In this document: one piece after another, positions 1 through 25,863 of the stretch
Numbering within the stretch: the stretch's first letter is position 1
How the letters are laid out: the number at the start of each line of letters is the position of its first letter
Source: an uncultured bacterium
GTDB taxonomy: Bacteria > Verrucomicrobiota > Kiritimatiellia > PWTM01
DNA: 33,995 nucleotides
Direction: 5' to 3'
NCBI GenBank assembly: GCA_937139365.1
Contig: CAKZPT010000101.1
Location: forward strand, 1-33,995
Program-made: the position numbers and the translations under genes
Notes under the pieces: generated by a model
Databases searched by the model: none
Told to the model about the DNA's origin: nothing
The model's input: only the letters and a program-made list of their open reading frames with translations

Positions 1-1773
1 CTCGGTGTACCTCTTCTGTTCGCGGAGCATCTCGCCCGCGCGGAAGGCGGCGTGGTTGTACAGCTCGATGCTCAGCTCCGGGAAGGTCATCCCCTTCGTG
101 TAGCGGCGGACGGCCTCCTCGAGCTCACCCAGCGCGCCGGAGACGTCGCCGAGCAGCACATGGGCCTCGCCCTGCAGGCGGCTGTCGGGATGGCGGTCCA
201 CGAACCGCAGGAGTTTGCGCTCCGCCTCCTCGTACGCCCCGAGCCCGTAATCGCAGGTCGCCGAGCGGAACAAGGCGTCCTCGGCGTACATCGAGGCGGC
301 AAACTCCTGCAGCAGGCGGTCGAAGGCCGGCCGCGCCTCGGCGTACTTGCGGTCGAACAAGAGGGACATCCCCAGCCAGTAGAGCGCATCCACCTCCCGC
401 TCGCTGCCGGGGTATTCGCGGACGATCCGGTCGAAATGCCGCTGGGCGTCGGCGAGTTTCTCCTCCATGAACGACGCGTAGCCGAGGAGGAAGAGCACCT
501 CGGCGATGTCCTGGTGCTTCGGGCTGACCTCCAGCGCCTTGCCGAGCACCGCCAGCACCCGGGGCCAGTTCTGCTCGGCGGCGTACACCTGCCCGACGGC
601 GAGGGAGACCTCGTCGTAGTGTTTCCCCCCGGGGTAACGGTCCAGGTACTCGTGACCGCGGGCCAGGCAGCGGTCGGACGGCTTCACGCGGACCGCCGTC
701 AGGAACGAGAGGAATAGGCACTCCTCCTTTTTCTCGCCGGTCACGTCCTCGTACAGCGCGTAAAACAGCTCCGAGGCCTCGCGCAACCGGCGGGTCTCCA
801 TGTAGCTGCGCGCGATCCGGAAGCGAAGTTCGTCGTCGTAGTTCGGAATCTTCTCGATCGCCTGCAGCTCGTTCTCGATCTCGGACACGGCCTCCTGCGC
901 GCGCAACAGCTCGCGGGCCAGTCCCATGAAGCGCTGGTAGCGCCGCACGCGCCGCTTCCACCGCTCGAGCTGTTCCTCCGCGTTGAGCCGCAGCGTGTCG
1001 TGGGAATAGACGAGGCGGTAGATCCAGAGCGCGTCGCGGTACTTGTCGTCGGCGAACAGCTCGTCCCCCGCCTCGAGCGCGGCCATGTTCAACGCCACGC
1101 TACGCGACGCGAACGAGCCGCGCTGCAGCAACAGCGGGACCATCGGGTAGACCTTGTCCGGCTTGCCATCCTTCAGGTAGGACGTGGCAAGCATCGCGGC
1201 CGCCCAGTTGCGGCGGTGCGGGTCGGGCGCGACGCGGTACACCTCAAGCAGAAAGGGCTCGGCCTTCTCCCATTTCTCTTCTGCCAGATGACAGCGGGCC
1301 ATCGAGACGAGGATGTCCGTCCTAAGGTCGAGCGAATACTCGTAGCTTTTGAGCGCCTTGTCGTACGCCGTCAGCGCGTCGCCGTACTTGCCTTCGTAGC
1401 GCCAGGTATCGGCCAAAAAGATCGCCACCAGATGGGCGTTGGCGCCGTAGCGGAACTTCTTCAAATAGACGTCGAAGACGTCGCGGCATTCCTTGAACTG
1501 CGCCAGAAAGAGGTGGCAAAGGCCGAGGTGGTAGTAGACGTCCTCCATCTCCGCCCGCATGCTGGCCTTGTCGGTGTCGCCGAACCACTCGACGAGCTGG
1601 CGCAACGGGGGAATCGCGTCCTCGTAGGCCCCGGCGGCCAGCGCGGCGGCCGCGGCCGCCCGGACTTCCTTGTAGGTGTCCTGCGGAACCGCCGGCGCGG
1701 CAAGGAACGGCAAAAGGAACGCCACCCACCGTGCCACGGTGCAGCGTTGCGCGCTGTGGAGATGGCGCATCAT
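1..1773 (-). CDS. Secreted tetratricopeptide-repeat protein (3' end outside window)
   Basis: The minus-strand reading frame stays open from an ATG at 1773 to the left edge, giving about 590 residues with no stop, so the C-terminus is missing. The first 30 or so residues form a signal peptide: a basic start, a hydrophobic stretch near VAFLLPFLAAPA, then a likely cleavage site. The rest is helical and rich in paired-helix TPR-like units with A/G, Y and L at TPR spacing, such as YHLGLCHLFLAQFKECRDVF and LYWLGMSLLFDRKYAEARPA. It is therefore an exported scaffold or protein-interaction factor, probably periplasmic; no enzyme domain is visible. A second ATG follows directly at 1770. The start lies 21 bp after the stop of the DnaE-like gene, so it is probably the last gene of the CPBP/DnaE-like/TPR transcript. 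Specific function unknown. Confidence 0.8.
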   Translation of the reverse strand, partial: MMRHLHSAQRCTVARWVAFLLPFLAAPAVPQDTYKEVRAAAAAALAAGAYEDAIPPLRQLVEWFGDTDKASMRAEMEDVYYHLGLCHLFLAQFKECRDVFDVYLKKFRYGANAHLVAIFLADTWRYEGKYGDALTAYDKALKSYEYSLDLRTDILVSMARCHLAEEKWEKAEPFLLEVYRVAPDPHRRNWAAAMLATSYLKDGKPDKVYPMVPLLLQRGSFASRSVALNMAALEAGDELFADDKYRDALWIYRLVYSHDTLRLNAEEQLERWKRRVRRYQRFMGLARELLRAQEAVSEIENELQAIEKIPNYDDELRFRIARSYMETRRLREASELFYALYEDVTGEKKEECLFLSFLTAVRVKPSDRCLARGHEYLDRYPGGKHYDEVSLAVGQVYAAEQNWPRVLAVLGKALEVSPKHQDIAEVLFLLGYASFMEEKLADAQRHFDRIVREYPGSEREVDALYWLGMSLLFDRKYAEARPAFDRLLQEFAASMYAEDALFRSATCDYGLGAYEEAERKLLRFVDRHPDSRLQGEAHVLLGDVSGALGELEEAVRRYTKGMTFPELSIELYNHAAFRAGEMLREQKRYTE

Positions 1774-1794
1774 TGACACGTAAAACTAAATTTA

Positions 1795-4700
1795 TCATCC
1801 GCCTTCCGGTGATTCAAGATGGAGCGACACCGTGCCCCAACCCCACCGCTGCTCCAGCGTCCGCCAGAGGGCCGCACCGGGCGACAGGCGACGCGCCACG
1901 ACCGTCGCCGGGCCGGCGAACCCGCCTTCGGCGTTCAGGGGCCTGACCACCAGCCGTGCGCGCCCCCCGCCCACCCCGGGCAGATCCTCGAAAGCACCTG
2001 CCGGAGGCCGCAGCTCAGGACCGAACCACGCCGTTAGCCGGACCTCCACGATTCGCGCCGCCACCGCATGGGGCCGCTCCAGCGCTCCGCGCACCTCCAG
2101 CGCATCCCTTCCCATGACTGCCCCGACCCGCGCGACCGCCACCTCCGCTGGCGTGAACCCCTCGTCGCAGCCGGGCGCGCACCGGACACGGATCGTTCCT
2201 TCGATCGCATCCATCATCCACTCCATCCGTCCCTCTGGCGCGGCCCTCCGCCGCACCAGCACGCCAACGACCCATTCGTCGGCCTTCACGACGCCCGCAA
2301 CTCCCGCCGCGCGAAGGCCGCGCGCCAGCCACTCCCACTCCTCCGCCGGATGCGGCGAAACTGCCGTCCCCAAAACCGCGCGCTCGTCCTCCCACCGTCC
2401 GCCGGCGTCAACGCCCGCCCCGTCGCTGGGCGCCGCGACCTCGAACAGCAAGCCCTGGCGGTCGCTGCCCGCTCCGTCCAAGCGTTCCAGGGCTTCGACG
2501 TCCTGCAGTTGTCGGGCGCGAACGGAATCGAACACGTCGAAGGCGCCGGCCCGAAGCAGCGACCGTAGATGCCCCCGGGCCGAGTGCCCCACCTTCTCCG
2601 CCCGTCGGGCGAAGTCCGCCACGTCCCGGTACGGGCCGCGGACCGACCGTTCCTCGACCCAAGCGGCGGCGGTGTCGTGCCGCACACCGCGGACAAGGCT
2701 GAGGCCCAGCCGGACGGCCGATTCCCCCTCCGGCCGGCACTCTGCATGGCTTTGGTTGATGTCGGGCGGCAACAGACGCAGGCCCGTGGCGCGGGCTTCG
2801 GCGGCCAACGCCGCGATTCGGTCCGTCTCTCCAGCGGCCCCGTTCAGCGCGGCGGCGTGAAAGGCGGCCGGCCGGTGCGCCTTCAGCCACGCCGCCCGCC
2901 ACGCGGCCTCGGCGATCACAACGCCCCGCGCCTTCGACACGCGGCGTTGCAGCCGTTCCCGGATGCGCTCCCATGCGGCCTCGAGGACCGCATCCGGAAT
3001 CCGGCGACGCCGGGCGCCGCGTCGGAACAGGTTCCACAGCAGCGACGCCGACCGATCGTCACGGCTCAGGAGCGCGCGGCGAAGGGCGTCGGACTGTTCC
3101 GCCGAAAGCCCGCCGAGGATCTCGGCGAGCCGCATCGCCTGTTCTTCATAAAGGCCCACGCCTGCGGTCTCGCGCGTCAGGTCCGCCACCGCGCGCCACA
3201 CCGTAAGAGGCATGTTCTGCGGCGGCTCCTCGTTGGCGCCCCCGGCGGGAGCCTGGGCACGGCGGTCCAGATACTCGCGCAAGAGGTCTGCGGCGTTGGC
3301 CTCGTGCAACGCCGCCAGCGGGACGACATCGTCCAGCGTCAAGACGCCGTGGCGACGAATGGCGGGACGGAGGGATGGCGACTCGAAATGGGGCACGCCG
3401 ACAAGGTCGCACCGTTGAAACACGGCGGCCGTCGCCGGATCGTCCGGCGGTGGCCCCGAACGTTCCGCCGGCTCGGCCGGCCAGTCGGGGTCCCTGAAGA
3501 ACGCCGCCGCGCGGCTGGAGGCGATCTCGATCGGCACTAAGCCGAAACGGCCGAGCTCACGCGCCTCGAACTGCGTCACGAGCCCGCCATCGGGCGCCGG
3601 AAGAATCGGCACACGCGTGGCGATGGGCACGTCGGTAACGAGGACCGCCGTCGGATGGCATGCGGGGTTGCGCGGCAGCCCATCGAACTGCCGGGCCAAG
3701 TCCACCAGGCGGCGCCGCGGATCGGCGGTATTCAGCGTTTCAAACTCCCGGGCAAGATGATCCAGCTCGCCTGCCCGACCGGTGGCCCGTTCTCCGGCCT
3801 CCGAACGGCTGGCGAGGCGGGACAGGACGTCCTCGAGGGCACGGGCGGGTGTCCGCAGCACGCGGGCGGCCTCACGCACCGCAAGGCGCGCACCGAATTC
3901 GCCGAGTACGAGCGCGTGCGCGACGCGGTCATTCCCGTAGCGGCGGCGCAGCGCCTCGATCATCTCCGTCCTCCGGCTAGGGGGCACATCGAGCCCCAGC
4001 TCCGGCAGTGCGCGGTGCGCGGGGTTCGCGAACCGCTCGGACGGGAGCCGGTGGCGGAGGGGGTCCACGTCCGTCAGCCCGAGACACCACGCCAGAAGGC
4101 TGCACGCCGGCGCCGCCCGGCCGCTCCAAACGGGCAGCCCGGCTTCGCGGGCCAGGTCGGCGATCTCCAGGTGCACCAACAGAAACCGGATGGCCTTCAC
4201 CTCGATCACCGCCCAGATTTCGCGCTCCAGTCGCCGCGCGGCCTCGTCCCATGCCCGGCCCGTCCGCGGGCGGCCCAGCTCGGCGAAGCGCCGCTCCAAG
4301 GCTTCGCTTGCGAGTTTCCGCAGCCACGCAGCCAGCCGGTGTTCGGGAGCCATTGCGGGCGCGAAGTTCTCGGGCGGATCGGCGCGGGGGAACGCCACCG
4401 GCACCGCGGGCCAGACGTCGCCCGAGCACCGCGCGGCAATCTCTTCCGTCCGCTCCACGGCGCCGGGGTCGTCCGAAAAGAGCGCAGCCATCTCGGCGGG
4501 AGAACGCAGGTAGAAACGGTCCGAGTACGGTGGGTGGCCTCCGGCGTCGGTGTTGCGGCGGATGCATCGTAACAAACGATGGGCCTCGGCGTCGGTCGGG
4601 CGAAGGTAGTGGACGTTGTTCGTCGCCACCGTGGGCAGGCCCGCGCGGCGGGCGGCCTCGCGCAGCGCGGCGCGGACGCCGTCCTGTCCGGGCAGGTCCT

Positions 4701-5217
4701 GGTGGGCGAGCTCCACATAGACCCGGTCGCGGCCGTAGATGTCCGCCAGCCGGTCGAGCGCGGCCACCGCCTCGTCGAAGCGGCCCTCCGCGCACAGCCG
4801 GGTCACTTCGCCGTTGTTGCCGCCGGACAGCGCCAGCAATCCGCGCGCATGGCGGGCCAGCGTCGTCAGGCTGACCGACGGCCGGCCGGGATAGGCCGGT
4901 TCAAGATGCGCTTGGCTCGCTAGCGCGCATAGCGACCGCCATCCCTCCGCGTTCTCCGCCAGCAAGACCAGGTCCGATCCAGAGGACGCCGAGGCCCCCC
5001 CCCAGACCACCTCCAGCTCGATCCCGAAGATCGGCTGCAGGCCACGGCGCGCCGCTTCACGGTGGAACTCGGGTGCGCCGTACAGCGCCCCGGAGTCCGT
5101 CATCGCCACGGCCGGCATGTCGAGGCGGGCCACCTCGTCCATCAGCGCCGGGATCCTCGCCAGGCTGTCGAGGAGGCTGTATTCCGTGTGGACGTGCAGA
5201 TGAACGAACGACGCCAT
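1795..5217 (-). CDS. DnaE-like DNA polymerase III alpha paralogue with degenerate active site
   Basis: 1140 residues with the bacterial C-family polymerase layout: PHP domain (about 1-270, opening HLHVHTEYSLLDSLARI), palm/thumb (about 300-570), fingers (about 670-800) and an OB-like C-terminal part (about 950-1040). Conserved landmarks include ATNNVHYL near 198 and FYLRSPAEM near 235. The catalytic core is eroded. The PDFDVDF motif reads PELGLDV at 405-411, so the first catalytic Asp is Gly408 and only Asp410 remains. The third Asp (KFDFLGL in E. coli) is Glu564. GSGAGS has become SGRAAPACS, and the fingers lysine motif LRRAMGKK reads LRRALLSRDD. The PHP metal site is also altered (TDS at 40-42), as it is in E. 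coli DnaE. The protein is full length with no frameshift, so it seems maintained for a non-polymerising role; this is inference. It lies between CPBP and TPR genes with 21-bp gaps. It is not the main replicative dnaE, and it lacks the residues that ImuC/DnaE2 keeps. Confidence 0.85.
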   Translation of the reverse strand: MASFVHLHVHTEYSLLDSLARIPALMDEVARLDMPAVAMTDSGALYGAPEFHREAARRGLQPIFGIELEVVWGGASASSGSDLVLLAENAEGWRSLCALASQAHLEPAYPGRPSVSLTTLARHARGLLALSGGNNGEVTRLCAEGRFDEAVAALDRLADIYGRDRVYVELAHQDLPGQDGVRAALREAARRAGLPTVATNNVHYLRPTDAEAHRLLRCIRRNTDAGGHPPYSDRFYLRSPAEMAALFSDDPGAVERTEEIAARCSGDVWPAVPVAFPRADPPENFAPAMAPEHRLAAWLRKLASEALERRFAELGRPRTGRAWDEAARRLEREIWAVIEVKAIRFLLVHLEIADLAREAGLPVWSGRAAPACSLLAWCLGLTDVDPLRHRLPSERFANPAHRALPELGLDVPPSRRTEMIEALRRRYGNDRVAHALVLGEFGARLAVREAARVLRTPARALEDVLSRLASRSEAGERATGRAGELDHLAREFETLNTADPRRRLVDLARQFDGLPRNPACHPTAVLVTDVPIATRVPILPAPDGGLVTQFEARELGRFGLVPIEIASSRAAAFFRDPDWPAEPAERSGPPPDDPATAAVFQRCDLVGVPHFESPSLRPAIRRHGVLTLDDVVPLAALHEANAADLLREYLDRRAQAPAGGANEEPPQNMPLTVWRAVADLTRETAGVGLYEEQAMRLAEILGGLSAEQSDALRRALLSRDDRSASLLWNLFRRGARRRRIPDAVLEAAWERIRERLQRRVSKARGVVIAEAAWRAAWLKAHRPAAFHAAALNGAAGETDRIAALAAEARATGLRLLPPDINQSHAECRPEGESAVRLGLSLVRGVRHDTAAAWVEERSVRGPYRDVADFARRAEKVGHSARGHLRSLLRAGAFDVFDSVRARQLQDVEALERLDGAGSDRQGLLFEVAAPSDGAGVDAGGRWEDERAVLGTAVSPHPAEEWEWLARGLRAAGVAGVVKADEWVVGVLVRRRAAPEGRMEWMMDAIEGTIRVRCAPGCDEGFTPAEVAVARVGAVMGRDALEVRGALERPHAVAARIVEVRLTAWFGPELRPPAGAFEDLPGVGGGRARLVVRPLNAEGGFAGPATVVARRLSPGAALWRTLEQRWGWGTVSLHLESPEGG

Positions 5218-5238: not shown

Positions 5239-6120
5239 CTACCAGAACCACCACGAATCGGTTAACAGCACGTGGAGGCCCAGCAGAAAATTCGTTGTGC
5301 CGTGCGCGACGACGGCCGCCCACAGGTCGCCTGTGCGCAGCACCAGTCCGCCGTACACCAACCCGGCCACGATGCCCGCGAACCATTCGGCATGTTCGAG
5401 GCCAAACAGCGCCGCGACCGCCAGCCACACCGGCGCATCCAGCCGCGTCACCGGAAACTCGAGAAAATCGCGCGCGCACAGCCAGCGGTAGAGAAACCCG
5501 CGCCAGAAAAACTCCTCGATCGCCGCGATCACCACCGAGGTTCCGAACATGTGGATCGCGAACGCGGTCCATCCGGTCCGGGCCGGAAGGTACGGGTACG
5601 CCCTCAGCGACTCCCGTAGACGCCCAAACCCGGAGGGAAGCGGGCCGACCAGAAACCGCTCGTAGAACTCCGCCATCCCGGGCGCGGCCCGGCGGAACGC
5701 GTCGCTCTCGGGGCCCACCCAGACCACGAACACCAGCAGCCCGGCGGCCAGCGCCCACCCCAAGTTGCGCGGATGCAGAGGACCGTACCATCGCCACGGA
5801 CGGACAGCCGCCAGGAGCCCCGCACCGCCGAGCGTGCGAAGCGTGTAGTTGGATGCCGACGGCTCGGCCGCCGACATCATCGCGGTGAGCCAGAAGGCGA
5901 ACGGCGCAACGTGGGCCCAGGTGGCCGCGTCGCGCCAAGGCCTCTGCCAGACGAGCGTGGCCGCTCCGGCCGCAATCCCGGCTGCCCGCGCCCAGACGGC
6001 ATCGTCGCCCAGCAGGTGCGAGACAAACCCGAATGCGACAAATGGAAGCAGATGCGCCCAGAAGGGCACCGGCGTGGGGGAGACCGTCGTGTCACAGGGC
6101 CGGGCGTCTAGGCCGATCAT
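5239..6120 (-). CDS. CPBP (CAAX/Abi) family intramembrane metalloprotease
   Basis: 293 residues from the ATG at 6120; an upstream in-frame extension to 6267 is possible but looks non-coding. Several hydrophobic helices precede the family core. The first motif is EEFFWRGFLYR (Glu202, Glu203, Arg207), the second His is in FGLEHAEW (His243), and a third motif is VVAHGTTN (His273, Asn277). These match the glutamate/histidine site of CPBP membrane proteases, related to eukaryotic CAAX prenyl proteases. A subgroup of this family occurs in genomes that have the PEP-CTERM/exosortase system, and a PEP-CTERM protein is encoded at 18305-19249. A role in processing sorted membrane proteins is therefore possible but unproven. 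It is the first gene of a minus-strand run; the DnaE-like start lies 21 bp downstream. The Shine-Dalgarno is weak (GGGAG only 2-3 bp from the ATG). Confidence 0.82.
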   Translation of the reverse strand: MIGLDARPCDTTVSPTPVPFWAHLLPFVAFGFVSHLLGDDAVWARAAGIAAGAATLVWQRPWRDAATWAHVAPFAFWLTAMMSAAEPSASNYTLRTLGGAGLLAAVRPWRWYGPLHPRNLGWALAAGLLVFVVWVGPESDAFRRAAPGMAEFYERFLVGPLPSGFGRLRESLRAYPYLPARTGWTAFAIHMFGTSVVIAAIEEFFWRGFLYRWLCARDFLEFPVTRLDAPVWLAVAALFGLEHAEWFAGIVAGLVYGGLVLRTGDLWAAVVAHGTTNFLLGLHVLLTDSWWFW

Positions 6121-6239
6121 GACTCCCGACGATAGCCATCTGTATCGAAATGCCAAGCCGGCCTCTACGCCCTCTGCGTCTCGCCGCGCGCCGAAACGGT
6201 CAAGCCGCCTCGGTAGTGGAAAAGGGGCTCGGCGAAACC

Positions 6240-6286
6240 TTCCAATGTTTGGAACCCAAAGACGCACGATTTTCCAAGGGTTGGAA
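6240..6286 (+). repeat. Double-dyad dispersed repeat, copy 1 (intergenic)
   Basis: Two 15-bp dyads of consensus TTCCAANNNTTGGAA occur at 6240-6254 and 6272-6286. Both are perfect in the six-base arms and start exactly 32 bp apart. The 17-bp spacer ends in CGATT. The same arrangement, spacing and spacer end recur at 23564-23610, and in degenerate form at 33737-33783. Translated in one frame, it gives an FQxLE...ARFSKxWK-like pattern shared with the other copies. Confidence 0.8.
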
Positions 6287-6620: not shown

Positions 6621-7757
6621 ATGCGGCGGCTCGTGCTCGGGTGGATGGCGGTGGCCATGGCAGCGGCGACTCCCGCCGCCGAGTGGACTCTCGCCCTGCA
6701 GGCGTGGACGCTGAACAAGAAGACCTTCGCCGAGACGGTGGCGGAGACGGCGCAGTTGGGCCTGACCGCCGTGGAGGCGTTTCCCGGCCAGGCCATCGGG
6801 GGCGGATGCGTGGGAAAAATGGTCTACACCATGAGCGAGGCCGCCCGTGCCGCTGTGCGCGATCTCCTCGCCTCCCGCAATGTCCGCTGGCTCAACTACG
6901 GCGTCGTCAGTGTCCGTGGCGAGGCGGAGTGGCGGAAGCTGTTCGAGTTCGCCAAGGCGACGGGAGTCGAAACGCTGGTCTCCGAACCGTCCGAGTCCGA
7001 CCTGGACGTGATCTCGCGACTGTGCGACGAGTTCGACATCCGCTTAGCGATCCACAACCACCCCGAGCCCTCTCACTACTGGAACCCGGAGACCGTGTTG
7101 CGAGCCGTGGCCAATCGCAGCCGCCGAATGAGCGCCTGCGCCGACACCGGCCACTGGCTGCGGTCGAACCTCGATCCGATCGAGTGTCTGCGGAAACTCG
7201 AAGGACGGATCGTCAGCCTTCATCTCAAGGACCTGCCCGAGAAGGGTGTCCGAGGCGTGAAGGACGTGCCATGGGGCACCGGCGTTGCGAATGTGGACGG
7301 AATCTTGAAGGAGCTTCGCCGCCAGGGTTTTCGCGGGGTGATTTCGATCGAGTACGAAAACTGGAGCCCGACGCAGATCGAGGAAATCCGCCGCTGCATC
7401 CAGTGGTTCAGCGCCTGGGGGGCTGAACCCGCGGCTGCCTTGCCCCGTCGCCATCAGCGGGCGATGGGGTTCCACCACGCGTCCAGTCGCCGGCGAAGAC
7501 CGGCGACCTGGTCCGGCAGTTCGGAGGCAAGGTCGCGGTTCTCCAGCGGATCGACGGACAGGTCTACGATCTCGCTATTCACCCCGTCCTTGACTCCGAT
7601 CGCCGGCCGTCCTCCGGAACGAGCGACCAGCAGATTCCACCGCCCCGCGACGATCCCGCGGCTCAACAGGCCGGCGGTATCCCCGAGGTCGAAGATGTCA
7701 TGCGTGTGGTTAAACACCGCGTCGCGGGCCTTCAGGGCGGACCGCCCATCAAGCTGA
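6621..7757 (+). CDS. Secreted sugar phosphate isomerase/epimerase-like TIM barrel (3' end frameshifted)
   Basis: The ATG at 6621 follows AGGAGA (6609-6614) with good spacing. The N-terminus is a signal peptide (MRRLVLGWMAVAMAAATPAA), so the product is exported. The next 250 or so residues match the xylose-isomerase-like TIM-barrel family, with conserved AIHNHPEPSHYWN, CADTGHWLRSNLDP, SLHLKDLPEKG and ISIEYENW carrying the usual Glu/Asp/His metal ligands. The barrel ends near CIQWFSAWG. The frame as given then runs about 110 codons of low-quality sequence, antisense to the facing sulfatase. One more G in the G6 run at 7417-7422 would end the protein at TGA 7424-7426, a natural length for the family. 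The native gene is therefore probably 6621-7426 with a one-base loss, real or from sequencing. A role in sugar isomerisation or epimerisation next to sulfatases fits carbohydrate use; the substrate is unknown. Confidence 0.75.
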   Translation: MRRLVLGWMAVAMAAATPAAEWTLALQAWTLNKKTFAETVAETAQLGLTAVEAFPGQAIGGGCVGKMVYTMSEAARAAVRDLLASRNVRWLNYGVVSVRGEAEWRKLFEFAKATGVETLVSEPSESDLDVISRLCDEFDIRLAIHNHPEPSHYWNPETVLRAVANRSRRMSACADTGHWLRSNLDPIECLRKLEGRIVSLHLKDLPEKGVRGVKDVPWGTGVANVDGILKELRRQGFRGVISIEYENWSPTQIEEIRRCIQWFSAWGAEPAAALPRRHQRAMGFHHASSRRRRPATWSGSSEARSRFSSGSTDRSTISLFTPSLTPIAGRPPERATSRFHRPATIPRLNRPAVSPRSKMSCVWLNTASRAFRADRPSS

Positions 7758-8736
7758 CGCCAGACAGGCGCTCGGGGGCGGACAGGCCGGTGGCGGCCAG
7801 GATCGTCGGGACGATGTCCAGCACCACCGTCTCATCGTCCCGCCGTGGCTGGATGCGGGCGCGCCAGCGGACCAAGATGGGCGTGCGGACGCCCAGTTCG
7901 TAGGGCGATCGTTTGGCGCGCCGGCCCTGGTCGCCGAGCGCGGCATCCCAGCCGTTGTCGACGAGGTACACGACGAGGGTGTTGTCCTTCACGCCACGCC
8001 GTTCGAGGAACCCGTCGAGCTCGCCGATCGTCTCATCCAGCCACCCAACCATCGCGAAGTATTTTTCCGCCTCCGACGTGGGGCCTTTTCCGGCATGACG
8101 CGCCAGCAACCGCTCGGGCGGCGTATGGGGCGTGTGCGGCAGAAACGGTGCGTACCAGACAAAGAACGGCCGTTTCCCGCGGAGCGACGAATCCACGAAA
8201 TTAAATATCGGCTGCATCCCTTCCCGGCCGATCGACAACCCCTCGCCGCCGTGGCGGCCGCCGGGGCGGGTCATACCGTCGGTGAAGCCGATCTCCGCGA
8301 AGCCGACGTTCCACAGCTTGCCCGTCTGCATCGTACGGTATCCGGCGCGCGACAGCTCGCGGGGCAGGAGGAACGAATTGGCCAAAAGCCGCTCGATCAA
8401 CGGGCGGCGGTCGCCGCGCATGCTGCCGACTCCCGGCCGGTCTTTCCGAGCCGCCAGGTCGTTGCCAGTGACGCCTTGGCGGTGCGGCGGCAGGCCGGTC
8501 AGAAGCGTCGTCAGGGACGGCGAACACAGCGCCGTCGTCACGTAGCCGCAGGTGAAGGTGAGCCCTTCCGAGGCGAGGCGGTCGAGGTTCGGCGTGAGGA
8601 CATGAGGGCTGCCCATGAAGCCGTAGTCCGGGAATCCGTAATCGTCAGAGATGATGAGCACCACGTTCGGCCGCTCAGCGGCCGTCACGACACCGGCCGC
8701 CGCCACGGCCAGGATCATGCACACATTCCGAATCAT
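7454..8736 (-). pseudogene. Formylglycine-type sulfatase with one frameshift (CSPSL subgroup)
   Basis: Starts at ATG 8736, overlapping the upstream sulfatase stop by 4 bp (ATGA). A signal peptide (MIRNVCMILAVAAAGVVTAA) is followed by the metal-binding DDYG motif. The active-site Cys71 is in CSPSLTTLLTG. The usual Arg of CxPxR is Leu, as I recall for a subgroup of planctomycete/verrucomicrobial sulfatases with CxPSL. Further landmarks are TGKLW, LVVYLVDNGWDA and YELGVRTPILVRW. The frame ends early at 7732, after RLSGVSLMGG. The expected C-terminus (LDGRSALKARDAVF, then ENRDLASELPD and LRRRLDAWW) continues in another frame to a stop at 7454. Restoring one C near 7753 rejoins the halves as GVSLDGRSAL. 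Its tail overlaps the isomerase readthrough. Probable role: desulfation of polysaccharide in the periplasm or outside the cell. Confidence 0.8.
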
Positions 8737-10191
8737 GGTTCCCCGCCCATCGCTCCGGCCGACCCGGCGGGCGTAGGGAGTCCGCGTGCCCACTCCGACC
8801 AGGCGGCCGTCAGCCGCCCGGCCGTTCCGCGCTCCCGACCCGCCATGTCGTCCATCTCCGAAGGATCCCGCTCCAGGTCGTACAACTCCCACGGCGCGTC
8901 GGGGCGTGGACGGATGAGCTTCCGGCGCCCCTCCCGAACGGCCGCCTGCCCTTGGCACCGCCAGAACAGCCGCGATCGCCGTGGCTCCGCATGTTCATCG
9001 CGAAAATAGGGCAGCAAACTGAACCCGTCCAACCCTTCGGGCACCGACACACCTGCGGCGTCCAACGCCGTCGGGGTCCAGTCGAGCGTGGAGACGACCC
9101 GCCGTTCCACCGTGCCGGGTGTCGCGACGCCTGGCCATTTCACCCACATCGGCACCCGGATCCCGCCCTCGTACATCTCGCCCTTGCCGCCGCGGAACGG
9201 GCGATTGGATGAGGTCAGCTCGCGCGTCGGTCCGCCATTGTCGCTGACGACCATGACGAGCGTGCGATCTGCCAGGCCTTTTCGCTCCAGCAGATCCAGC
9301 AGCCGGCCGATCGAATGGTCCAGATGACCAAGCATTGCCGCGAACAACCGCCGGTGAGGGTCTGCGATGTCCGCATGGCGCTCGAACCATTCGACCGACG
9401 CTTGCATCGGGCTGTGAACCGCGTTGTACGCCAAGTAGAGAAACCACGGTTGGCCGCGGTGCCGGACGATGAAATCCTCCGCCTCACGGGTGAATGCATC
9501 GGTCAAGTTGTCCGGCTCCGCACAGGGTTGGCCTCCGCGCCAGAGAGGGTTATTCGCGTCGTAGGGCGGCTCGTCCGAGGCCATGTGGGTGGACCAGAAC
9601 ACCCGGCCGTTTAGCGACCGCCAGAGTCCCTCGCCACCGTTCGGCAATCGTCGCCGCCTCAGCCAGGTGATGTGCCCCGTCCACGGCGGAGGAACATAAA
9701 AATGTCCCTCGTGAAAAAACCAAAGAATTCGTCAAAACCACGCCGGAGCGGGTGGTGGGCAGGTGACGCCCCCAGGTGCCACTTCCCAACGCCGACGTGG
9801 CGTAGCCGGCGAGTTTCAGGCGGGACGCGACGCGCGTCTCGGAGAGCGCCAACCCCGCGCGTGGATCCTCGTTTTGCGGGCCCACCGGATTGAACTCGAA
9901 GCCGATGCGCGAGCAACGGCGTCCGGTGAGCAGGGACGCGCGGGATGGGGCGCAATATGGGGCCGTAACGTAGGCCTCCGAAAACCGAATGCCCTCGCGG
10001 GACAGGCGGTCGAGGTTGGGAGTCGGTAGCCTGCCGCCATAACAGCCGGGTTCACCAACCCCCAAATCGTCAATGACGATCCAAAAGATTTTCCGCCGCG
10101 CGAGCTCCGCCCGCACGGGGCCGGCCCTCGCGACAAGCACGGAGATCCGGAAGACGGCGGCCAACAGCCCATGTAAGCTAACCACCTTCAT
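8733..10191 (-). pseudogene. Formylglycine-type sulfatase with two frameshifts
   Basis: The reading frame begins at ATG 10191 with a hydrophobic signal-like N-terminus. It carries the metal-binding VIDDLG motif (Asp41, Asp42) and the canonical formylglycine site [11 protein letters not shown] (Cys80). The first frame fails after [10 protein letters not shown]. The expected [20 protein letters not shown] continues in a second frame from about 9787. That frame fails at a T-run (A6 on the plus strand, 9714-9719), and a third frame continues with [11 protein letters not shown], then VVSDNGGPTREL, FRGGKGEMYEGGIRVP and LYDLERDPSEMDD, to the stop at 8733-8735. Each break is mended by one extra base. 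Without correction the gene cannot make a complete enzyme. Its stop overlaps the next sulfatase's start, so the two form one transcript for sulfated glycan degradation. Confidence 0.82.
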
Positions 10192-11116: not shown

Positions 11117-11920
11117 ATGCGGCTCCAATTGACCCGCCCGCTGGTCATTTTCGACATCGAAGCGACCGGAGCGAACTGGGAGCGCGACCGGATTATTGAT
11201 CTGGCCGCGATCCGGCTGACGCCCGACGGCAGCCGACAGACGACGAGCTTCCGGTTCAATCCCGGCATGCCGATTCCGCCTTCGTCGACAGCCATCCACG
11301 GCATCACCGACGACGACGTGAAGGACGCGCCCACCTTCGACCAGCGTGTGGACGAGGTGGAGGCCGTGTTTCACGACGGAGACCTGGCAGGTTTCAATGC
11401 GTGGCGGTTCGACGTGCCCCTGCTTCGTCAGGAGTTCAAGCGGGCCGGCCGGACCTTTGAGCTGCGCGGGCGGCGCATCATTGACGTCCAACGCATCTAC
11501 CATCTAAAGGAACGGCGCGATCTGAGCGCTGCCGTCCGTTTTTATTTGAACGAGGAGCACGTCGGCGCCCACGGGGCGGCGGCCGACGCCGAAGCCACGC
11601 TTCGCGTCCTTGACCGCCAGCTCGAGATGTACGCCGACCTGCCCTCCGACGTGGAGGCGCTGGAACGGTTTTGTTTTCCCACATCCGCCGAGGCCATCGA
11701 CCGCGAGGGAAAGCTCCGGTGGGATGTCGGCGGTGACGCTGCCCTCGCGTTTGGCCGTTTCCAGGGCCGAAAGCTGCGCGAACTGGCTGCCGACCGCGAC
11801 GGACGCAAATACCTCGAATGGATGCTTCGGCAGGAATTCGGCGCCGAAGTGAACGAGTGGGTCCGTCTTGCCCTCGAGGATCGCCTTCCGCGGCGGGTGG
11901 AGGCCCCCCCGGCTGGTTGA
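11117..11920 (+). CDS. DEDDh-family 3'-5' exonuclease
   Basis: 267 residues. The ExoI motif IFDIEATG supplies Asp13 and Glu15, the ExoII region is GFNAWRFDVPLL, and ExoIII is the HGAAADAEAT segment with the catalytic His and Asp. This is the DNA polymerase III epsilon/RNase T fold, acting on DNA or RNA 3' ends. The C-terminal segment (LAFGRFQGRKLRELA, then KYLEWMLRQEF) resembles the small module that follows the nuclease in exodeoxyribonuclease X-like proteins. It stands alone on the plus strand and converges on the SpoIIE-type phosphatase, with only 5 bp between the stops. The ribosome site is weak. The substrate is not evident; repair or proofreading-type trimming is likely. Confidence 0.82.
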   Translation: MRLQLTRPLVIFDIEATGANWERDRIIDLAAIRLTPDGSRQTTSFRFNPGMPIPPSSTAIHGITDDDVKDAPTFDQRVDEVEAVFHDGDLAGFNAWRFDVPLLRQEFKRAGRTFELRGRRIIDVQRIYHLKERRDLSAAVRFYLNEEHVGAHGAAADAEATLRVLDRQLEMYADLPSDVEALERFCFPTSAEAIDREGKLRWDVGGDAALAFGRFQGRKLRELAADRDGRKYLEWMLRQEFGAEVNEWVRLALEDRLPRRVEAPPAG

Positions 11921-22293: not shown

Positions 22294-23117
22294 ATGTCAA
22301 GGCCACCGTACGTGTGACCGGCCGGTCTGTTCGCAGCCGCCTCTCTTCTCCTGTCCTTCCCCTCGCCTTCCATGGCCGATCCCGTTGTGTCCACGGCCGA
22401 GATCGAATCCCTGCGGCTGGCGATCCTCGCCCCCGAAGCAACCTTTCCGGATCGCCATGTCGCCGGTCCGCGACTCGAACACCTCGCCCCCCTCGAAGCG
22501 GCGCTGACCAATGCGTCCGACGTCGCCTTCCTGCGGGCGGAATTCGACCGCCTCCGCCGCGAGGCCCTCCTGGCTAACCCTCTGCTGGACGGCATTTCGA
22601 TCCTGTGCCTCCGCCGAAAGCTGGCGAACGACCGGACCCTCGACGACCGGGCGCTCGGCCTCCCGCAGAACTGGCAAGGCAACTGTGCCCTTCCCCCCTT
22701 GGGCCACACCAACCAGATTGTCCGCATCGATCCCGCCCGGCCGGACGATCCGCCGGAGGTTGTGTTCGAACTTTCCGATCCCGTCTGCCTCGCTGATCTC
22801 GAGCCGCATTGGGACGGCCGCCGCCTTCTGTTCTCGATGCCCGCCGGCCCCCGGCGGCGATGGCAGGTGTTCGAGCTAGTCCCGGCTGGAGGGGCCGTCC
22901 GGCAGATCACTCGGGATTTTCCTCAGGAAATCGACAACTACGATCCCGCCTATCTGCCCGACGGCGACATCGTGTTCGCCTCAACCGCATGTGTCGCCGG
23001 GGTGCCGTGCGTCGGCGAGAGCACCCGCGTCGCCAATCTCTTTCGGTGCCATCCCGACGGCTCCCGTATCCGGCAACTGTGCGTGGACCAGGAACACAAC
23101 TGGTATCCGGCCGTACG
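22294..23117 (+). pseudogene. Hydrazine-synthase-alpha-like propeller protein, damaged N-terminal part
   Basis: An ATG at 22294 with a good AAGGAGAG ribosome site opens a reading frame whose eighth codon is TGA (22315-22317). Beyond it the same frame encodes a signal peptide (LFAAASLLLSFPSPSMA). A family-typical region follows, with NPLLDGISILCLRRK, LPQNWQGNCALP, LLFSMPAGPRRRWQVFEL, IDNYDPAYLPDGDIVFAST and QEHNWYPAV. This matches the HZS_alpha_mid/TolB-like proteins common in PVC genomes, whose next residues should be the LxNGRVxYxRWEY segment. Here homology stops abruptly at about 23117, where GH127 sequence begins in another frame. So there is both a nonsense codon and a truncation. Downstream ATG 22372 could start a protein without a signal peptide. 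Confidence 0.75.
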
Positions 23118-24448
23118 GTTTTCTCTCCGGGGTCTTGTTCGGCGGCGATCGGTACCCCAACCCGCTCGAATCCGATGGCCGCAACCGGTTCAACCACGGC
23201 GCGCCCGAGCGCCAACCGTGGTTTGGCTGCTTTTGCTGCCCCGTCAACGTCGCGCGAGTCGTGCCGCAGATCGGCGCCTGGGGTTATTCGGCTGGTCCCG
23301 CCCGCCTGCACGTCCATCTCTTCGAGGCCGGCGTCGCCACAACCCGCGTGGCCAGAGCGACCGTCATCGTCCGCCAGCTCACCCGCTACCCCTGGGACAG
23401 GGCCGTCACGATCGAGCGACATCCCGAGCCAGCCGTGGAGTTCGATTTGATGGTCCGCGTCCCCGGCTGGACGCTCGGCCGGCCTGTGCCCTCCGACCTG
23501 TACCGACACGTGGGCCCGCCGCCGCCCGCCCCCACCGTCGCCCTGAACGGCATCGCGGTCAGGTTCCAATCCTTGGAACGCGGATACGCCCGATTGTCCA
23601 AGGTTTGGAAGCCCGGCGACCGCGTCGAACTCCATCTGCCCATGCCGATCCGCCGCGTGGCCTGCCACCCCGCCGTCGCGGACAACGCCGGCCGGCTGGC
23701 GGTCGAGCGGGGCCCCCTGGTCTACTGCATCGAGGGGGCCGACCATCCCGACCGTGGTGCGCTGCACATCGCCGTGCCGGCGGACGCCGACTGGTCGGCC
23801 GCCTTCGAGCCCGACCTCCTGAACGGCGTCGTCGTCCTTCGTGGCCGTGGTCTGGCCGTGCGCGAAACCGGCGATGGCCGGCGCGAGGTCTCGCCGGTAA
23901 AAGTCGCCGCCATCCCCTGTCATGTCTGGTGCCACCGCGGCCCGAACGAGATGCCGGTGTGGATGCCCACAGATCCCGCCCACGTCCGCCCCTTGCCGCC
24001 GTCAACCCTCGCGTCGGAGGTCAAGATCAGTGCCTCGTTCTGCCACCCCAACGATTCGCCGGACGCAGTGAACGACGGCCGGCTGCCGAAGCGCTCCAAC
24101 GACCACGGCATCCCGCGCATGACGTGGTGGAACCACCGCGGCACCGCGGAGTGGATCCAGATGGAGTGGCCGTCGCCGCGGACGGTGGCGGCCATGGACA
24201 TCTACTGGTTCGACGACACCGGCCGCGGCCAGTGCCGGGTGCCGGCCTCGTGGCAGTTGTTCCGCCGCGCCGACGGCCGTTGGATCCCCATCGAGGGCCG
24301 GAGCGCGCCGGGCGTCGCGCCGGACACCTTCAACCGTCTCGAGTTCGAGCCAATCGCCACGGACGCCCTCCGCGTCGAGGTCCAATTGCAACCGGGCGTC
24401 TCCGGCGGCGTGCTGGAGTGGCGGGTGTTTTCGCCTCCTGGGCCATGA
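23118..24448 (+). pseudogene. GH127 beta-L-arabinofuranosidase, C-terminal half
   Basis: From about 23117 the frame ending at 24448 reads as the second half of GH127 (formerly DUF1680). It has FLSGVLFGGDRYPNPLESDG and WFGCFCCPVNVARV, which holds the adjacent Cys pair that includes the nucleophile and a zinc ligand, then KPGDRVELHLPMPIRRV and AVERGPLVYCIEGADHP. A C-terminal galactose-binding-like module follows (WWNHRGTAEWIQMEW, IYWFDDTGRGQCRVPASW). The N-terminal half of the (alpha/alpha) barrel, including the other zinc ligands, is absent and replaced by the out-of-frame hzsA-like fragment. It cannot be an active enzyme unless a start elsewhere rescues it. Its stop overlaps the next sulfatase start (ATGA, 24445-24448), so the two were one operon for arabinose-containing sulfated or pectic glycans. 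Confidence 0.8.
23564..23610 (+). repeat. Double-dyad dispersed repeat, copy 2 (inside GH127 coding sequence)
   Basis: Dyads lie at 23564-23578 (perfect TTCCAANNNTTGGAA) and 23596-23610 (one mismatch, first T is G). Starts are 32 bp apart, and the spacer ends ACGCCCGATT, like copy 1. In the GH127 frame it encodes FQSLERGYARLSKVWK, covering the family-conserved GY and W positions. Confidence 0.8.
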
Positions 24449-25863
24449 GGCGGTGCGCGCGGCGGGTTCGTCTCGGAGCCGTGGTTGGAGTCCTCCTCGC
24501 CGCCAGGGTGTCGGCGACCGCTCCGCCGCCCAACCTCCTCGTTATCCTCACGGACGACCAGCGCCACGATGCCCTGGGTTGCGCCGGTGGCCCGTTGCCG
24601 GCCCTGACGCCGGCCATGGACCGGCTGGCCGCGCGCGGTTTGCGTTTTCGGAACGCGTTTGTCGTGCTCTCGATCTGCAGCCCGAGCCGCGCCGCAGTCC
24701 TGACGGGCCTCTATGGCAGCGTCAACGGCGTCGTCACCGTCGGGAGCGCACGGCTGCGGGAGGGGGTCGCGACCTTCGCCCAGCGACTGCGCGCCGCCGG
24801 CTGGCGCACCGGCATGGCCGGCAAATGGCACCTCGGCACGCCGCCCGCGGAGGCGGGGTTCGACTTCGTCGCGGCCTTTCACGGCAACGGCCCCTGGTAC
24901 CGTCGCGGTGTGGTCGCGGATGGCGTCGAGGGCGTCGCGGAGGGGATGATCGATGAGTGGGTCGCCGCGCAGACGATCCGGTTTCTCTCCGAGGCCGCCC
25001 GCGATTCCCGGCCATTTGTGTTCTGGATGTGTACGCAGCTGCCGCACATGGACGACCGGCATGAATGGGACGTGCGGCCCGAGTCGCTCGAACGCTTTCC
25101 AGTCGAACGCATGCCGCTGCCGGCGACGTGGAACGACGACCTGACCGGGCGGCCGGCCTACCTGTTGACCGCGCGCCCGCGGCTGCAGGCGCGTCGGTAC
25201 GGCTACGACGACCCGGAGGCGATCCGACGGCATATCGCCCGTTATCTGGCGGCCGTCTACGAGGTGGACTGCGCGATCGGCCGGACGCTGGACGCGCTCG
25301 ACCGACTTGGTCTGACGGACCGCACCGTGGTGATCCTCTCCAGCGACAACGGCTGGCTCCTCGGCGAGCACGGCCTGACGGGCAAGGTGCTGCCCTACGA
25401 GGAATCAATTCGCGTACCCCTGATCTTCGCGGGCCCCGGCGTCCGGCGGGGTGTGGAGGACCGGTTTGTCCTGAACCTCGACCTCGCTCCCACGATCTCG
25501 GATTTGGCCGGGCTGTCGCCGGATCCGTCGATCCACGGCCGCAGCCTTCGGCCGCTGTTGGCCGGCGAGCCGGCGCCCGAGTGGCGCGAGGAGTTCCTCT
25601 ACGAGGCGCCGGTCGGCCAGCTCGGCGTCCGGCCGTTGTGGGCGGTGCGCACGGAGCGGTGGAAGTACGTGCGGACCGAGGACCCGCGCGAGCCCGGCCG
25701 GATCCTGTCGGAGGAATTGTACGACCTGACGGCCGATCCGCTCGAAACCAACAACGTGTTCGTGGATCGCCGCCGGCACGACGTCGCCGGGCGGATGGCC
25801 GGCCTGCTGCGGCGGTTTCAAGTGGAGCTGGAACGTGACCGCGAACGCCGCGCCGGCCGATGA
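24445..25863 (+). CDS. Formylglycine-type sulfatase, intact
   Basis: 472 residues. A signal peptide (LGAVVGVLLAARVSA) leads to the metal site ILTDDQRHDALG (Asp37, Asp38). The canonical formylglycine motif is CSPSRAAVLTG (Cys78). MAGKWHLGTPP, SSDNGWLLGEHGLTGK, YEESIRVPLIFAGPG and ELYDLTADPLETNN are all in one frame and of normal length. Cys78 is oxidised to formylglycine by an anaerobic or FGE-type maturase that is not in this window. It overlaps the GH127 fragment by 4 bp and is the only undamaged sulfatase here. Predicted role: extracytoplasmic hydrolysis of sulfate esters on a polysaccharide; substrate unknown. Confidence 0.9.
   Translation: MRRCARRVRLGAVVGVLLAARVSATAPPPNLLVILTDDQRHDALGCAGGPLPALTPAMDRLAARGLRFRNAFVVLSICSPSRAAVLTGLYGSVNGVVTVGSARLREGVATFAQRLRAAGWRTGMAGKWHLGTPPAEAGFDFVAAFHGNGPWYRRGVVADGVEGVAEGMIDEWVAAQTIRFLSEAARDSRPFVFWMCTQLPHMDDRHEWDVRPESLERFPVERMPLPATWNDDLTGRPAYLLTARPRLQARRYGYDDPEAIRRHIARYLAAVYEVDCAIGRTLDALDRLGLTDRTVVILSSDNGWLLGEHGLTGKVLPYEESIRVPLIFAGPGVRRGVEDRFVLNLDLAPTISDLAGLSPDPSIHGRSLRPLLAGEPAPEWREEFLYEAPVGQLGVRPLWAVRTERWKYVRTEDPREPGRILSEELYDLTADPLETNNVFVDRRRHDVAGRMAGLLRRFQVELERDRERRAGR

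Follow-up and report, generated by a model that had tools for sequence, protein, structure and literature searches.

Inactive DNA polymerases are known from the B family (PMC2527604, PMC2669801), the X family (PMC9226535) and, in the form of ImuB, the Y family. For the C family, a survey of about 2000 genomes published in 2013 found the catalytic residues D401, D403 and D555 (E. coli DnaE numbering) to be absolutely conserved throughout; note that sequences without an intact active site were dropped from that survey (PMC3919608). A 2026 survey, in the parts consulted, covers Y-family proteins without activity as well as PHP proofreaders that have been inactivated, and there gives no inactive C-family polymerase (PMC12926913), and our literature searches found no known inactive DnaE. 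Here we describe dnaE-p, a gene on a contig of 33,995 nucleotides from an uncultured bacterium (CAKZPT010000101.1; this whole stretch is referred to as the window), that encodes a full-length DnaE-fold protein with a dismantled polymerase active site. We consider it rather probable that this is the first pseudo-polymerase of the C family, a native replicase that was displaced by a foreign DnaE, kept family-wide, and in the genus of the window converted stepwise into a non-synthesising, PHP-centred protein. In the following, p denotes DnaE copies of the dnaE-p type, c those of a second type, and g1 the genus of the window (the window genome, G001, G002 and G003). G006 represents the sister genus of g1, G004, G005, G007 and G008 are the other genera of the family, and G026 and G038 are one genome each from two other families.

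Each of the described systems resembles dnaE-p in part. Within the B family, inactivated polymerases of archaea and the half of Pol epsilon that is inactive (PMC2527604, PMC2669801) are likewise conserved by selection with wrecked sites beside a working replicase, but they belong to another family than dnaE-p, are far more widely distributed, and for at least one group, PolB2 (Dpo2), activity was demonstrated later. ImuB compares as a dead polymerase that is retained because a complex needs it for something other than catalysis; it is a Y-family protein, however, and acts in a defined ImuA-ImuB-DnaE2 complex, partners of which none was found for dnaE-p (ImuA was not searched for). Noncanonical PolX from Deinococcus has lost palm catalytic and nucleotide-binding residues while its PHP domain was preserved (PMC9226535), but it is an X-family protein with a functional nuclease domain, whereas four of the nine PHP ligands are changed in dnaE-p. 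With canonical DnaE1 from E. coli, Thermus or M. tuberculosis the protein shares fold, domain order and a QGLLF motif in the same place, yet the Asp triad and the lysine of KxD are lost, as are PGRGSGAGS in the palm loop and LRRAMGKK in the fingers, and the protein fails the equivalog cut-offs. DnaE2/ImuC, finally, is alike in being an additional DnaE whose function is presumably non-replicative and whose PHP site is degenerate, and the catalytically intact p copies of sister genera resemble a similar accessory copy. DnaE2 keeps its Asp triad, however, and dnaE-p differs in phylogeny and in that no ImuB and no imu-type neighbours were found for it.

1795..5217, minus strand: dnaE-p (P0001), full-length DnaE-fold protein of 1140 residues, polymerase active site dismantled

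The frame begins with ATG and extends over 1140 codons with zero internal stops. Pfam identifies PHP (residues 6-171), DNA_pol3_alpha (298-562), DNA_pol3_finger (590-737) and HHH_6 (812-901), each above its gathering cut-off. Among the NCBIfam models, dnaE-p passes TIGR00594 for the DnaE superfamily (516.9 bits, cut-off 434.35) but fails PRK05673, the replicative DnaE equivalog (552.6 bits, cut-off 1002), and it remains far below all DnaE equivalog cut-offs. About 900 residues were alignable by phmmer to solved DnaE chains from Thermus, M. tuberculosis and E. coli. An AlphaFold model (pLDDT 83, pTM 0.79, from a 29-row alignment) superposes 879 residues on E. coli DnaE with a VIA Z of 46, and Foldseek matches it to M. 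tuberculosis and Thermus-group DnaE, with an E-value of 1e-62 to DnaE structures. Matches to PolD DP1 in the fold search involved the OB domain alone and were rejected. As evidenced by Pfam, Foldseek and VIA, the protein with its PHP, palm, fingers and helix-hairpin-helix domains thus belongs to the C-family DnaE fold.

The alignments made with HMMER and MAFFT agree in placing G408, D410 and E564 of dnaE-p at D401, D403 and D555 of E. coli DnaE, with no gap nearby. Re-translation of the DNA gives LPELGLDVP for dnaE-p opposite MPDFDVDFC of E. coli, and GLVPIEIAS opposite GLVKFDFLG. In the AlphaFold model, residues 408-411 and 562-567 lie on strands. The altered positions are:

4099..4125, minus strand: SGRAAPACS (residues 365-373), where the palm loop PGRGSGAGS would be expected, from alignment and translation
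3994..3996, minus strand: G408, at the site of catalytic D401 of E. coli, from alignment and translation
3988..3990, minus strand: D410, at the site of E. coli D403; Asp is retained in the window genome and replaced by Glu in G003 and G006
3526..3528, minus strand: E564, at the site of E. coli D555; the KxD lysine (E. coli K553) has become P562
3061..3084, minus strand: LRRALLSR (residues 712-719), where the fingers would be expected to have LRRAMGKK, from alignment and translation

The three-aspartate pattern of a catalytically active C-family polymerase is absent from dnaE-p, and with two of the three metal-binding aspartates altered along with the palm loop, the lysine of KxD and the KK of the fingers motif, polymerase catalysis has very probably been lost. 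A first-pass annotation, made from the letters of the sequence, had described an undamaged, full-length DnaE-type protein with Gly, Asp and Glu at the catalytic positions, a rewritten GSGAGS loop and a rewritten LRRAMGKK motif, and had suggested that catalysis was apparently gone. The protein, its residues and both motifs are confirmed, the structural modelling that the annotation had proposed agrees with the DnaE fold, and the loss of catalysis is supported. A sequencing error or assembly artefact is unlikely, as like changes occur in three other genomes, one of them titled as a single-cell assembly (SCGC AH-151-A22).

In 160 non-redundant DnaE frames drawn from the loci gathered for this analysis, the D-D-D triad is found 154 times and one frame is cut off before the third Asp. 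Of the five exceptions, the window gene has G, D, E at these positions, G001 and G002 share S, D, D, G003 has A, E, D, and G006 has D, E, D; with such a distribution the change is not a matter of chance. The first Asp is gone in all four g1 species, while E564 is confined to the window genome. The orthologues sharing G408 and E564 that the annotation had envisaged therefore exist in part: three congeneric proteins lack the triad, but they have S or A at position 408 and no E564. The same alterations could be read as those of a specialised, weakly active polymerase, translesion or terminal-transferase-like, that makes use of altered carboxylates such as D410 and E564. The palm is indeed about 53% identical within g1, its ratio of nonsynonymous to synonymous substitutions (dN/dS) is 0.05-0.16 in the closest pair, and archaeal PolB2, predicted to be inactive, proved active (PMC8764526). 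D401, the KxD lysine, the GSGAGS loop and the fingers KK are jointly lost, however, the rate of change in the fingers is far above that in palm or PHP, and D403E alone turns E. coli alpha into a dominant-negative subunit (PMC10850973), so that we regard this explanation as quite improbable. In view of the E. coli variant, the lone D403E exchange of G006 may by itself be inactivating.

The genome of the window organism (2.8 Mb, 97% complete) contains a second DnaE, P0002, on contig 41. Its triad is intact (PDVDIDL and KMDLLG), its PHP ligands are complete (nine of nine), and with 1169 bits it passes the DnaE equivalog cut-off of 1002 that P0001 does not reach. Of the nine family genomes, eight have both p and c, while G003 (68% complete) shows p only. 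Outside the family the c type was found only in G038 and G026 (54-67% identical), other members of the class reaching at most 45%. The c copies (L033 2668-6201, minus strand; G001, G002, G004-G008, G026 and G038) have a palm loop that is one residue short, SP-RGSGVAT against PGRGSGAGS, and LIKAISKKK against LRRAMGKKK. This type, the family's working replicase, is apparently an unusual but active DnaE1, and in the window genome replication presumably falls to P0002, the intact copy.

Trees calculated under two models join the p copies to the DnaE1 that the rest of the class has as a single copy, and place the c copies elsewhere; an LG+C20 tree yields the same separation, and G034b, a second-copy DnaE from another family, is placed far from the p copies. 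A tree constrained to unite p and c in a single clade is worse by 94.7 log-likelihood units, with p = 1.3e-12 in the approximately unbiased (AU) test, and a recent duplication giving rise to both is rejected. Note that long branches and compositional bias leave the fine placement of the p copies uncertain, and that the p sequences of G003 and G004 were omitted from later trees for their long branches. Two DnaE genes in nearly every family genome, with the single exception a genome that is 68% complete, are what an ordinary in-lineage duplicate of the replicase that lost its function would leave behind. Given that the p + c clade is rejected and that p groups with single-copy DnaE1 proteins from other families of the class, such an origin is exceedingly improbable. 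The simplest reading of the trees is that dnaE-p is the native DnaE1 of this bacterial class and that c displaced it. The c copy was probably imported from outside; an ancient duplication followed by many losses may serve as an alternative to the import.

An identity of dnaE-p as ImuC/DnaE2 was likewise rejected, as it sits in the class's own DnaE1 clade and the detected Y-family genes are not ImuB-like. Among the Y-family matches in the family genomes no ImuB-like gene was found, the matches resembling active PolY with SIDE motifs (ImuA was not searched for), and the neighbours of dnaE-p, a CAAX protease and a TPR protein, include no imu-type genes. A Y-family polymerase of the DinB type was observed in g1 and G006 (L198-L202) and none was seen in G005, G007 and G008 (L203-L209); it is possible that synthesis was handed over to this polymerase in genomes with a dead or half-dead dnaE-p. 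For the first-pass annotation these results have different consequences. Its exclusion of a simple translesion enzyme of the ImuC/DnaE2 type stands, and the canonical dnaE it had advised looking for elsewhere in the genome is P0002, but the label of a paralogue has to be abandoned, since dnaE-p is not a within-lineage paralogue but a displaced native DnaE1 next to a separate working replicase.

The native p gene is kept in all nine family genomes. Its triad is intact in four genera of the family, D403 is exchanged for Glu in a fifth (G006), and the site is dismantled in g1. The p copies of G004, G005, G007, G008 and G038 keep the triad, and where their sequences cover the PHP domain this has decayed to one to four of the nine ligands. 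The copy of G004 (L041, contig 32), with about 909 residues, is without the C-terminal part, and combines a strongly altered PHP site with a retained triad. In G006, which is sister to g1 in the tree for p and c copies alike, the D403 exchange is accompanied by the loop PGRGAVAGS. From this distribution a succession of steps may be proposed. The ancestor of the family and of families f19 and f23 would have gone over to a second DnaE1, phylogenetically distinct and with its PHP exonuclease site intact. The native copy, now displaced, would first have been retained as an accessory polymerase, the state of the four related genera with intact triad and decayed PHP site, and polymerase catalysis would then have been lost toward g1, with D403 to E in the sister genus and, in g1, D401 to G, S or A and rewriting of loop and fingers. 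As part of the joint pseudo-polymerase reading, we lean towards the view that these living intermediates record the order of steps in the loss of the metal site.

In the pair G001-G002, dN/dS according to Nei and Gojobori is 0.24 for p, at a dS of about 1; the c gene has a value of 0.11 and the neighbouring TPR gene one of 0.09. The p frames of about 1100 codons are open in all four g1 species in spite of protein identities of 40-67%. The gene is therefore maintained, as the annotation had held, and the status of a pseudogene is rejected. It is under purifying selection, with constraint shifted between domains. Identities in g1 pairs are 57-59% for PHP, 53% for palm and 27-31% for fingers, against 38-49%, 65-68% and 55-66%, respectively, in catalytically intact relatives; for the p copies of the closest pair, G001-G002, they are 80%, 79% and 59%, with a dN/dS of 0.18 in PHP. 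In c copies the palm is the domain of highest identity. The interaction of PHP versus fingers has a z of 5.4 to 6.1 in three comparisons, values that are indicative, as the pairs share ancestry.

2998..3492, minus strand: fingers region, residues 576-740, weakly conserved in g1 (27-31% in distant pairs)

A decaying relic under relaxed selection, in which breakage is still invisible, would agree with the faster evolution of p than of c (67.5% versus 85.6% identity in one pair) and with near-neutral ratios in C-terminal parts of one pair. That a frame of this length stayed open in four species, that dN/dS is as low as quoted at such a dS, overall and in PHP, and that constraint moved among domains rather than dropping uniformly makes this very improbable.

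4402..5217, minus strand: PHP domain, residues 1-272, the best-conserved domain in g1
2515..2784, minus strand: HHH_6 helix-hairpin-helix region, residues 812-901 (Pfam), presumed to contact duplex DNA
2443..2457, minus strand: QGLLF (residues 921-925), a motif of the beta-clamp-binding type in the DnaE position
2041..2316, minus strand: OB-fold region, residues about 968-1059, a low-confidence part of the AlphaFold model, from fold match

In the PHP domain the ligand consensus HHDHEHCDH of the nuclease is incomplete and reads HHDSEDGNH, i.e. five of nine are kept (H8, H10, D17, E67 and H203) and four are changed (S42, D82, G133 and N201). This set is common to all four g1 species except for S or A at the fourth position, and the stretches GGNNGE and VATNNVHYL are invariant within g1. 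A fate like that of noncanonical PolX, in which the polymerase was lost and PHP is still a metal-dependent nuclease or phosphatase with remodelled ligands (H8, H10, D17, E67, D82, H203), would make sense of a PHP domain that is the most conserved in g1, although in relatives with intact catalytic residues its conservation is below that of both palm and fingers. The five consensus ligands as well as D82, N134/N135 and N201 are fixed in the four species, and noncanonical PolX proteins show the same trade-off and are active exonucleases (PMC9226535). The four altered ligands, however, include the Cys and Asp of the metal centre, and the E. coli PHP domain, with similar losses, is virtually without exonuclease activity, its role being structural, and is bound by the epsilon exonuclease (PMC3666897); we therefore deem this fate unlikely. 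The clamp-type motif is QGLLF in the window genome and QALLF or QTLLF in G001 and G002, and it is also kept in G006. By this QxxLF-type motif in the DnaE position, dnaE-p is a predicted binder of the beta clamp.

5239..6267, minus strand: CAAX-protease-related protein, next gene upstream across a 21-nt gap, adjacent in four of four g1 species
1..1779, minus strand: TPR protein, next gene downstream across a 15-nt gap, running off the contig end; in relatives followed by an ExbB/ExbD/TonB-like run

In all four g1 species dnaE-p is located between the CAAX-protease gene and a TPR/ExbB/ExbD operon. This order is limited to g1, the other family genomes having CAAX and TPR genes on contigs other than that of dnaE-p; the gene has moved in g1, and the neighbours are for this reason little informative on function. 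A scan for promoters and terminators gave nothing informative. Elsewhere in the window, 11117-11920 (plus strand) encodes a DnaQ-like exonuclease of the DEDD type (RNase_T, E-value 7.5e-22) that scores under all DnaQ equivalog cut-offs and is a possible partner of either DnaE protein. Positions 7732-10191 and 22372-25863 hold several sulfatase-like genes, one of them a 1163-residue frame with C-terminal arylsulfatase matches.

Several observations weigh against a dead enzyme reused as an accessory protein. One or two carboxylates are left (D410, E564), G001 and G002 retain two Asp, and Sulfolobus PolB2, also predicted to be inactive, proved active (PMC8764526), for which reason 'dead' stays a prediction from sequence for dnaE-p. 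A canonical trinuclear PHP nuclease is unlikely with four of nine ligands changed. The C-terminal OB/tau region evolves nearly free of constraint, with a dN/dS of 0.56 in the closest pair and 1.15 in a distant one, synonymous sites being near saturation in most pairs and dN/dS hence approximate. The p copy of G003 is without a clamp-type motif (three of the four g1 species have one), which weakens a clamp- or tau-centred role, and the loose C-terminus disfavours entry to the fork via tau. The CAAX-protease and TPR/ExbB neighbours, finally, offer no link to DNA metabolism.

With these points considered, we hold with considerable confidence that dnaE-p is a dead but maintained displaced replicase. 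Its use as a PHP/clamp accessory is a more tentative proposal, to which we give slightly less than even chances, and the best explanation as a whole, a dead, displaced native replicase reused as a PHP-, DNA- and clamp-binding accessory, appears reasonably probable. The protein would now work without synthesis, binding DNA through its helix-hairpin-helix region and, in most species, the clamp, with PHP as functional centre. PHP might be a remodelled metal site, or else a platform at which other proteins dock, e.g. an exonuclease of the DnaQ type, and dnaE-p may compete with polymerases, or hold their place, at clamps or primer ends. The different job suggested by the first-pass annotation fits this PHP-centred domain pattern, although the job itself, presumably a non-synthesising one, is inferred.

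A maintained DnaE that is catalytically dead, as predicted here, would fill the C-family gap among inactive polymerases. In these Lentisphaerae-type bacteria the replacement of a replicase is apparently on record, with the ousted enzyme surviving in accessory and in dead forms, and this makes testable what uses a bacterial replicase may have besides synthesis, and whether PHP as a domain has a task in its own right.

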